Below, piece after piece: positions 1-34,967 of a DNA stretch of 64,000 nt (positions within the stretch are counted from its first letter, which is position 1; the number at the start of each line of letters is the position of its first letter). The translations under genes and the position numbers were made by a program. The notes beneath the pieces were generated by a model, which saw nothing but the letters and a program-made list of their open reading frames with translations, searched no databases and was not told the DNA's origin. Origin of the DNA: Burkholderiaceae bacterium (lineage in GTDB: Bacteria; Pseudomonadota; Gammaproteobacteria; Burkholderiales; Burkholderiaceae_C); contig JAHCKM010000005.1 of NCBI GenBank assembly GCA_026125795.1, forward strand, positions 124,001 through 188,000, read 5' to 3'.

Positions 1-307
1 GCTTGCTGCCGTCGATCACCAGGCAGGCTCCCACGGTCTGTCCGCACTGGCTGGTGCCCGCGCCGCGCGGCAGCACCGGCACCTTGAGCTCACGCGCGAT
101 CTGGATCGCGGCGCGCACGTCGGCGTCGTCGGTGGGCACGAACACGCCCACCGGCATCACCTGGTAGATCGACGCGTCGGTGGCATAACGACCGCGTGAG
201 GCGGCGTCGAACAGCACCTCGCCGCGGGTGTTGCTGCGCAGGCGCTTGGCCAGCGCCACGCTGGTGTCGGTGGCGGGCTGGAGCTTCGTGGCGTCGTCAG
301 GCTTCAT
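1..307 (-). CDS. FAD-linked oxidase, N-terminal part (GlcD/YdiJ-like), cut by window edge
   Basis: The first 102 residues of a flavin oxidase are visible; the rest lies beyond the left edge. The segment ATDASIYQV (residues 42-50) and the FAD pyrophosphate-binding stretch PRGAGTSQCGQ (80-90) are typical of the FAD_binding_4 family that includes glycolate oxidase GlcD, D-lactate dehydrogenases and the fused FAD/Fe-S protein YdiJ. The reaction is probably oxidation of a 2-hydroxy acid, but the substrate cannot be read from this fragment. The ATG at 305-307 has no ribosome binding site. A weak -10-like hexamer (GACACT on the minus strand, 314-319) lies six bases upstream, so a leaderless transcript is possible. 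Its neighbours, an aminotransferase and a TRAP transporter, would fit 2-hydroxy/2-oxo acid metabolism. Confidence 0.8.
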   Translation of the reverse strand, partial: MKPDDATKLQPATDTSVALAKRLRSNTRGEVLFDAASRGRYATDASIYQVMPVGVFVPTDDADVRAAIQIARELKVPVLPRGAGTSQCGQTVGACLVIDGSK

Positions 308-32708: not shown

Positions 32709-34253
<1,545 letters not shown>

Positions 34254-34285: not shown

Positions 34286-34314
34286 GGGCAGCGGGCCCGC
34301 GGAGCCCGTACCAG

Positions 34315-34344
34315 AAAAAAGGCCCGAGGCGTGAGCCTCGGGCC
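34315..34344 (-). terminator. Rho-independent terminator of the ilvA-upstream small RNA
   Basis: A perfect 10-bp stem (GGCCCGAGGC with GCCTCGGGCC, 34321-34330 and 34335-34344) closes a four-base loop. On the minus strand it is followed by six U (34315-34320). This is the strongest intrinsic terminator in the window and lies upstream of ilvA, on the same strand. Confidence 0.85.
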
Positions 34345-34412
34345 CAATCCACCAATGGGATAGGTGGAGGAGACAACCTTCGCAGAACGCACCGCCAAGC
34401 GGGTGCTGCACT
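34315..34412 (-). ncRNA. Candidate small RNA (about 98 nt) with exposed anti-Shine-Dalgarno motif
   Basis: A self-contained minus-strand transcription unit: -35 TTGCGA (34443-34448), a 17-base spacer, -10 TAGACT (34420-34425), then about 98 bases ending in the terminator at 34315-34344. The RNA has no start codon. It can form a 5' hairpin (GCACCCGC with GCGGUGC), then a UCUCCUCC stretch (complement of 34366-34373) partly in a linker and partly leading into a second hairpin (UCCACC with GGUGGA), then the terminator. UCUCCUCC is complementary to ribosome binding sites, so it could pair with mRNAs. I recall reports of toxic betaproteobacterial sRNAs with an anti-SD motif; whether this belongs to that family is unchecked. 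A leader/attenuator of ilvA is the alternative. Confidence 0.6.
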
Positions 34413-34419
34413 GGGCGCA

Positions 34420-34448
34420 AGTCTAGCGTGGCGAATGTTGCATCGCAA
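34420..34448 (-). promoter_or_regulatory. Promoter of the ilvA-upstream small RNA
   Basis: TTGCGA and TAGACT on the minus strand are separated by exactly 17 bases, matching sigma-70 consensus at four positions in each box. It points away from the osmC-like gene. Confidence 0.55.
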
Positions 34449-34544: not shown

Positions 34545-34967
34545 ATGGAGTGCACAGTGCGTTGGGTACGCGACGGCGGCATGACGTTGATGGCCGAGAC
34601 CGGCAGCGGCCACGTGCTGATGATCGATGGCGCACCCGACGGTGGCGGTCGCAACCTGGCGCCGCGCCCGATGGAGACCGTGCTCGCCGGCACCGGCGGA
34701 TGCACGGCCTACGACGTGGTGACGATCCTCAAGCGCGGACGCCACGACGTGCGCGGATGTTCGGTGAAGCTGCAGGCCGAGCGAGCGACGACCGATCCGA
34801 AAGTGTTCACACGCATCCACATGCACTTCATCATCAGTGGCATGCAGTTGAACGCCGACGCCGTGGCACGTGCGGTGGCGTTGTCGCATGAGAAATACTG
34901 CTCGGCGACGGCGATGCTGGCAAAGACCGCCGAGATCACCGTCAGCCATGAAATCGTCGCGGCCTGA
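34545..34967 (+). CDS. OsmC/Ohr family protein (YhfA-like)
   Basis: A 140-residue OsmC-fold protein. RPMETVLAGTGGCTAYDVVTI contains one conserved cysteine after GG, and EKYCSATAMLAKTAEI contains the second. Both are needed for thiol-dependent peroxide reduction in OsmC/Ohr; the sequence is closest by eye to the YhfA branch, whose physiological substrate is unclear. A strong AAGGAGG ribosome binding site (34531-34537) selects the ATG at 34545 over an upstream in-frame codon. It stands alone, divergent from the sRNA and ilvA. Confidence 0.88.
   Translation: MECTVRWVRDGGMTLMAETGSGHVLMIDGAPDGGGRNLAPRPMETVLAGTGGCTAYDVVTILKRGRHDVRGCSVKLQAERATTDPKVFTRIHMHFIISGMQLNADAVARAVALSHEKYCSATAMLAKTAEITVSHEIVAA

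Follow-up and report, generated by a model that had tools for sequence, protein, structure and literature searches.

A PhaR-type box in the promoter of a conserved RF02278 small RNA gene suggests a link between PHB storage and nutrient uptake in Burkholderiales

The stretch of Burkholderiaceae DNA analysed here, 64,000 nucleotides in length and referred to as the window, carries upstream of ilvA a small RNA (sRNA) of the family RF02278. We estimate a probability of roughly 0.73 that it is a free-standing gene with a PhaR-type box in its promoter, whose RNA represses the start sites of uptake-protein genes. Sequence comparison supports its family membership, structure and synteny, the conservation of the box, the co-occurrence with PhaR, a phasin-linked sibling RNA, and a bias at start sites; from here we infer PhaR binding, the direction of control and the repression of targets in the window organism.

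RF02278 RNAs are already known. As far as our searches reach, the new elements are the conserved PhaR-type box, the co-occurrence with PhaR and the phasin-linked sibling. In the literature searched, which lay mostly outside subscription journals and was available in part, neither PhaR control of RF02278 RNAs nor a phasin-linked sRNA in Betaproteobacteria was found.

An RF02278 RNA and its gene

A covariance search (cmscan) of the 64-kb window returned a single match at curated thresholds, namely RF02278 (Betaproteobacteria toxic sRNA) on the minus strand at 34375-34314. It scores 64.3 bits against a cut-off of 50 and spans the model from end to end (positions 1-64). The first-pass annotation had pointed to a family of anti-Shine-Dalgarno (anti-SD) toxic RNAs from Betaproteobacteria and proposed this search; the family it meant is RF02278. 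Its suggestion that the RNA belongs to or extends that family holds for the membership: on its own the window RNA is an ordinary RF02278 member and does not extend the family. Two family traits, the 5' core UGUCUCCUCC and a pair of hairpins behind it that ends in the terminator, are present. The epithet 'toxic' stems from growth inhibition on cloning or overexpression in Escherichia coli (PMC4603805), and for the relative S17 of Bordetella pertussis, overexpression in E. coli is reported to leave exponential growth unimpaired and to impair entry into stationary phase modestly (PMC11722255).

The gene lies entirely on the minus strand. Its promoter consists of a −35 element TTGCGA (34443..34448) and, 17 bases on, a −10 element TAGACT (34420..34425), both assigned from sequence and conservation. 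Judging from the positions of promoter and terminator and from the fold, the primary transcript is predicted to be about 99 nt long (34315..34413). A shorter processed form (34314..34375), which coincides with the covariance match, is predicted from S17S (PMC11722255). The intrinsic terminator (34315..34345) comprises an 11-pair stem (34345-34320) and six U that run to 34315. Thus the sigma-70-like promoter and the perfect terminator some 100 bases later, both proposed beforehand, are indeed in place. So is the proposed anti-SD stretch, UCUCCUCC at 34373-34366, although conservation refines the pairing core to UGUCUCCUCC (anti-SD site 1, 34366..34375). Hairpin 1 (34348..34368) pairs UCCACC with GGUGGA, as seen in fold and alignment. 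The region 34413-34314 folds at −47.3 kcal/mol (z = −4.34), which 1 of 200 shuffled sequences equals.

With 8 of 12 consensus letters, the sRNA promoter fell short of the 9 demanded by a promoter scan and was not listed by it. Its backing comes from conservation: of the 67 family loci with the box, 66 continue from the −35 element to a TANNNT at a spacing of 15–19 nt, which is 17, the value tried first, in 47 of those 66; the background for TANNNT is 1.4%. The earlier statement that the RNA has no start codon is correct for ATG and needs amending for GTG and TTG, both of which occur, with the frame 34510-34103 open throughout. A coding function was rejected, as the RNA lacks ATG (an open GTG frame runs through it).

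Distribution and conservation

RF02278 is widespread around the window organism. Within the genus, 4 of 6 genomes gave a match (3 above the cut-off), within the family 255 of 299 (208 above) and within the order 99 of 150 (59 above); in each case 0 of 14 control genomes did. Among the matches listed, a matching family genome carries one to three copies. A scan of genome contigs for the core gave at least 119 stretches, 80 of them with names, and in 52 of the 119 listed the core is followed by a T-run. The named records in the 52 include Hydrogenophaga, Variovorax, Burkholderia, Caballeronia, Massilia, Duganella, Janthinobacterium and Zoogloea; a few from Lachnospiraceae, Olsenella and Verrucomicrobiia look like chance occurrences. 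As a side observation, two order-level genomes of another family (G307 and G355; loci L072, L188-L194, L044, L195-L200) hold nine and eight RF02278 matches, and two of these (G307:C1:1646160 and 1646538) lie about 380 nt apart.

For comparisons of individual loci, 73 were taken from within the family (30 best scorers, 3 of the window's genus including its own, and 40 hand-picked among the matches listed) and 40 from other families, one per genome among the matches listed. The string GTCTCCTC is present in 114 of 115 loci; the one without it, L069, was dropped from the motif counts, which leaves 39 of the 40. The longer core GTCTCCTCCA occurs in 73/73 family loci and in 36/39 others (exceptions L036, L044, L052), where only its last two letters are freely tested, because the loci had been located via GTCTCCTC. 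Since two of these exceptions, L044 and L052, break the core after GTCTCCTC and were among the 19 sequences omitted from the alignment for length, the core was counted over all 112 loci. In the alignment itself, which comprises 82 of the 101 distinct sequences, both partners are exchanged in one sequence or more at 9 of the 14 predicted pairs, chiefly those of the terminator, and in hairpin 1 one C-G pair is U-A in 11 sequences. A lack of conservation in the stems or the CUCC motif had been named in advance as grounds for dropping the first-pass proposal; both turned out to be conserved.

In one respect the window RNA departs from its relatives. The loop of hairpin 1 commonly carries another anti-SD copy in RF02278 RNAs, although the curated model does not demand it; 69 of the 73 family loci have this copy, as do 36 of the 39 from other families. 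The window loop, UAUCCCAUU, lacks it and reads UAUCCC at this place, so that the window RNA would rely on its 5' site.

Given this conservation, the locus could hardly be a mere terminator behind a chance promoter with no function in trans. The conserved core, the covarying hairpins and the conserved promoter all speak against such an idea, as do relatives that are strongly expressed (PMC5688073) and that, according to PMC4603805, Northern blots have verified for four strains of B. cenocepacia, and we give it next to no credence.

Genomic neighbourhood and the question of an ilvA leader

The sRNA gene is flanked by an osmC-like gene (34545..34967, plus strand, PF02566), which is divergent to it, and by ilvA (32709..34253, minus strand, PF00291 and PF00585), the next gene downstream, which encodes threonine dehydratase. 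Genes for the synthesis of branched-chain amino acids are classical targets of attenuation. An RNA that points to ilvA from a distance of 60 nt might be its 5' leader or attenuator, with transcription starting upstream and the terminator governing read-through. Within the family the arrangement looks compatible with this idea: searches with tblastn found IlvA at 70 of the 73 loci, downstream on the sRNA strand in 70/70, and OsmC at 72, divergent upstream in 72/72. Outside the family the picture changes. At the 40 other-family loci, with flanks of up to 2.5 kb, IlvA was found at none, whereas OsmC was found at 25 and Coq7 at 15. Linkage to ilvA is accordingly not a property of the RNA wherever it occurs (70/73 inside the family, 0/40 outside). 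In this sample the osmC/coq7 neighbourhood outlasts the family and the ilvA neighbourhood does not, which argues against an ilvA leader and bears out the earlier view of an independent RNA gene.

Three further observations weigh against a leader. Copies of the core also occur elsewhere, and the coq7-adjacent S17 of B. pertussis acts in trans (PMC11722255). Moreover, TATGAT or TATCAT lies within 160 nt past the terminator in 59 of 73 family loci, compared with 2 of 1506 windows in other parts of these loci. This element fits a separate ilvA promoter and agrees with the −10 box that the first-pass annotation had assigned to ilvA beyond the terminator. Taken with the evidence in its favour, an ilvA leader appears very improbable to us, and we continue with the free-standing gene.

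A PhaR-type box in the promoter

Upstream of the sRNA loci a motif recurs, TTGCRNYGCARCA. In the window it takes the form of the box TTGCGATGCAACA (34436..34448, minus strand), the initial six letters of which are the −35 element. This box agrees in 11 of 12 letters, one position being off, with the PhaR consensus TGCRNYGCASMA, a Bradyrhizobium consensus deduced from footprints and a promoter alignment (PMC6201568).

Within 120 nt upstream, 68 of the 73 family loci and 20 of the 39 from other families hold a match of at least 11/12. Sixty column-shuffled motifs gave on average 2.25 (maximum 16) and 0.6 (maximum 3) such loci, respectively, and elsewhere in the same loci the box occurs in 177 of 3747 windows (4.7%). 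Outside the family, TANNNT follows at 15–19 nt in 11 of 19 loci bearing TGCNNYGCA, compared with the 66 of 67 inside it. The promoter of locus L042, which has the hexamers and spacing of S17, reads TTGCATCGCACAA, an exact PhaR motif. Across the window genome the pattern TTGCNNYGCARCA alone is weak (69 sites versus 40 for the reversed pattern), and near the window genome's own phaR there are just 11/12 matches.

The distribution of PhaR itself was compared with that of the box. The window genome, which was handled apart, encodes PhaR (PF07879, 101.6 bits), and the protein was found in 66 of 80 genomes tested, a set of 79 out of the 113 genomes with loci plus one more. Outside the family, 20 of 28 PhaR-bearing genomes have a box at 11/12, whereas 0 of 11 PhaR-less ones do (Fisher 4.5e-5, kinship ignored); at 10/12 the numbers are 27 of 28 and 3 of 11, and counted by family they are 10/13 versus 0/7 (p = 0.003). 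Inside the family this comparison is uninformative, since the box accompanies the RNA in 32 of 37 genomes with PhaR and in both genomes without a PhaR hit, these two being 87% and 76% complete. By eye, the loci of PhaR-less genomes (L045, L053, L055, L060, L063, L065, L075) show no box, and several carry TTAGATAAT or a close variant, as if their promoters had been rewired.

Could the box be something other than a PhaR site? It might be a sequence favoured around −35 elements, or a different regulator with TGC-N3-GCA sites might bind there. It does overlap the −35 element in 66 of 67 family cases, so that part of it is under promoter constraint, and 8 of the 28 PhaR-bearing genomes of other families lack it at 11/12. 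In addition, the PhaR site of Ralstonia eutropha is stated to be unrelated to the TGC-type site (PMC3206438). This report implies that PhaR sites may vary among species. On the other side, in the same source the region footprinted by PhbF of Herbaspirillum seropedicae, a protein 83% identical to Ralstonia PhaR, holds TG[N]TGC[N]3GCAA. A general −35 context can be addressed directly. Among family sRNA promoters of the form TTGCNN-16..18-TANNNT (n = 46), YGCA continues the −35 element in 43, while it does so at 0 of 17 TTGCNN-17-TANNNT sites elsewhere in 1.6 Mb of the window genome; in this genome the YGCA box is no general −35 context. With the box also missing at 11/12 from all 11 PhaR-less genomes of other families and the same motif preceding 23 of 30 phasin genes, we consider a non-PhaR box unlikely and favour a putative PhaR site.

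A sibling RNA downstream of phasin genes

Phasin genes are classical PhaR targets, and they lead to a second RNA. The window genome contains another RF02278-like copy, which at 33 bits stays below the cut-off (L002:1501-1563, minus strand, equal to G000:C2:794043-794105). Its place is some 100 nt past a phasin gene (PF09361) that is preceded by two exact PhaR motifs. The arrangement was followed in 30 phasin loci, those most similar to the phasin of the window organism out of 100 genomes. There, TGTCTCC with a T-run occurs within 350 nt downstream of phasin in 20 of 30 loci and in 0 of 120 control windows, and the 300 nt in front of phasin hold an exact PhaR motif in 23 of 30 loci, as against 1 of 228 control windows.

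The sibling RNAs are distinguishable from the window RNA by their first stem, which is mostly GGTACC/GGTACC, the version of the copy in the window genome (GGUACC/GGUACC), with GGATCC/GGATCC, GGCACC/GGTGCC and GGTCCC/GGGACC as further versions. In all 7 that were folded, TTGTCTCC is unpaired. An Rfam scan of 10 phasin-linked loci raised no sibling RNA above any Rfam cut-off (just tRNAs in L209). The 150 nt in front of four copies (L002, L005, L209, L210) are free of the box, which makes processing from the phasin mRNA their likelier origin. Judged by these features, the RNAs of the phasin 3' region look like an undescribed group of sRNAs.

Candidate targets among uptake genes

If the 5' end of the RNA pairs with ribosome binding sites, its complement should mark them. 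GGAGACA, the complement of the 5' seed, stands 2-9 nt before ATG at 111 places in the genome and at 7 for the reversed sequence; the stricter pattern GGAGGAGAC-N2-9-ATG has 6 sites genome-wide. As reversal also breaks the Shine-Dalgarno sequence, contrasts between extensions and between gene classes were used instead, with start sites taken from a self-written gene finder (937 and 318 genes). Over 1.2 Mb (G000:C1:1-1200000, L372-L431), the three letters that most often extend GGAG ahead of ATG are ACA, with 19 of 231 cases where 8.5 are expected from single positions.

The genes behind these sites often encode periplasmic binding proteins. Pfam scans covered 18 of 19 targets (one crossed the end of a piece) and 18 of 20 drawn controls. 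Ten of the 18 GGAGACA genes encode solute-binding proteins (5 DctP, 3 TctC, 2 Peripla_BP_6); of the controls one does (TctC), and two more are other parts of ABC transporters. At start sites, once all homologues are included, GGAGAC precedes 18 of 29 solute-binding genes and 22 of 202 others (p = 4e-9). Because 10 of the 11 seed proteins behind this test came from the target list, it was repeated without the seeds: GGAGAC then precedes 8 of 18 solute-binding genes (p = 0.0008), while GGAGACA alone is not enriched among these non-seed genes (1/18, p = 0.54). In a separate 400 kb, GGAGACA is found before 3 of 4 solute-binding genes and 5 of 90 others (p = 0.0016) and GGAGAC before 3 of 4 and 15 of 90 (p = 0.02); the difference in duplex energy in this stretch is not significant (p = 0.11).

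The bias could have another source, if GGAGAC were simply the ribosome binding site that solute-binding genes prefer and the targets of the sRNA were few. Related genes can have common 5' regions, GGAGACA alone is unenriched in the non-seed set, and the bias comes from one RNA-bearing genome. Yet the 18 solute-binding genes with GGAGAC have drifted far apart, their best BLAST pairs reaching no more than 42% identity and 32% on average, and belong to three Pfam families, 10 by Pfam and the rest by homology. Furthermore, no other two-letter extension found in at least two of them is enriched. The S17 system points in the same direction: its deletion raised 91 genes as scored, 70 of them with matching sites, and 32 transporter-related genes or operons are included (PMC11722255). 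A mere preference of these genes therefore has some weight but seems rather doubtful, and we retain solute-binding-protein genes as the candidate targets of the sRNA.

A proposed circuit between carbon stores and uptake

How might these elements work together? In the proposed circuit, a sigma-70-type promoter with its −35 element inside a PhaR-type box would drive the RNA of about 99 nt, which is probably cut to a form of about 61 nt starting with UGUCUCCUCC. The 5' end of this form, probably with the help of Hfq, would pair with ribosome binding sites of the type AGGAGACA and block translation, chiefly of solute-binding-protein genes of the DctP, TctC and Peripla_BP_6 families. When PHB is absent, PhaR would sit on the −35 element and keep the sRNA off. 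PhaR bound to PHB granules has been reported for Ralstonia and Sinorhizobium (PMC6201568, PMC12542648), and granules that take up PhaR would open the promoter. The sRNA would then appear along with the sibling RNA from the 3' region of the phasin mRNA, the translation of solute-binding proteins would be blocked and carbon uptake would fall. A putative PhaR site in the sRNA promoter thus suggests that full stores lower nutrient uptake.

Extended to the whole group, RF02278 RNAs would carry the PHB-storage regulon of Burkholderiales to the post-transcriptional level, kept off by PhaR and released by granules. The same UGUCUCC seed against solute-binding proteins would come from two arrangements, one being a free gene with the PhaR box at −35, the other an RNA located in the 3' part of the phasin mRNA. 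We think that this wider proposition is probably right, with less assurance than for the window gene. If true, it would describe a conserved loop by which full carbon stores feed back on nutrient import, and would supply a missing regulator of a widespread sRNA family. The trigger for the accumulation of RF02278 RNAs in Burkholderia is stated to be unknown by Sass et al., who mention an upstream motif that three copies have in common (PMC5688073), and the authors of the S17 study postulate an unnamed repressor in the Bvg- mode (PMC11722255); for both, the PhaR-type box at −35 is a testable candidate. A 2021 review likewise calls the role of riboregulation in the PHB synthesis of Cupriavidus necator undeciphered (PMC8401924), and the PhaR-boxed sRNA would be a candidate for it in a bacterial group used for bioplastic.

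Relation to known systems

The closest relatives are the Burkholderia double-hairpin RNAs of RF02278 (ncS03, ncS05, ncS27, ncS62; bdhR1), which have the core UGUCUCCUCC, two hairpins and the terminator in common with the window RNA and differ from it in the second anti-SD copy that its loop lacks. Bordetella S17 and Burkholderia ncS27 presumably act at ribosome binding sites. For S17, transcription from a mapped promoter, processing by RNase E, dependence on Hfq and the repression of one direct target are reported (PMC11722255). Its promoter, compared here by hexamers and spacing, has a −35 TTGCAT, a 17-bp spacer and a −10 TACTAT, and its abundant short form starts at the C/U-rich core, as predicted for the window RNA. 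The coq7 neighbour of S17 is common to 15 of the 40 other-family loci. The two RNAs differ in the length of their leader form (190 versus about 99 nt), in one flanking neighbour and in the Bvg-linked expression of S17, which is higher in the Bvg+ mode; the part of the S17 account consulted states no link to PHB (PMC11722255).

A similar logic has been described for MmgR of Sinorhizobium (RF00519), an sRNA with a connection to PHB that PhaR/AniA represses (PMC12542648), although it is a different, alphaproteobacterial RNA. The PhaR/PhbF regulon is comparable in that the motif upstream of its phasin genes is the same as the sRNA box; the parts of the regulon literature consulted name no betaproteobacterial sRNA as a member. 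CU-rich anti-SD stretches like those of the window RNA are known from Neisseria NmsR/RcoF and the alphaproteobacterial ar14, which are weak matches, and the targets of NmsR lie in the TCA cycle (PMC5688073), unlike the candidates proposed here.

Membership in other Rfam families was considered and rejected on score, with the window RNA reaching 32.2 bits for NmsR (RF02877, cut-off 52), 27.2 for ar14 (RF02344, cut-off 58.8) and 16.7 for MmgR (RF00519, cut-off 41), and staying below the cut-offs of SorY and anti-hemB. Second copies in L211, L212 and L220 read TTTCTCCTCTATTTCTCCTTTGTAGATT, which is near the consensus of Neisseria NmsRb, and going by this likeness they are a possible bridge between the RF02278 and NmsR families.
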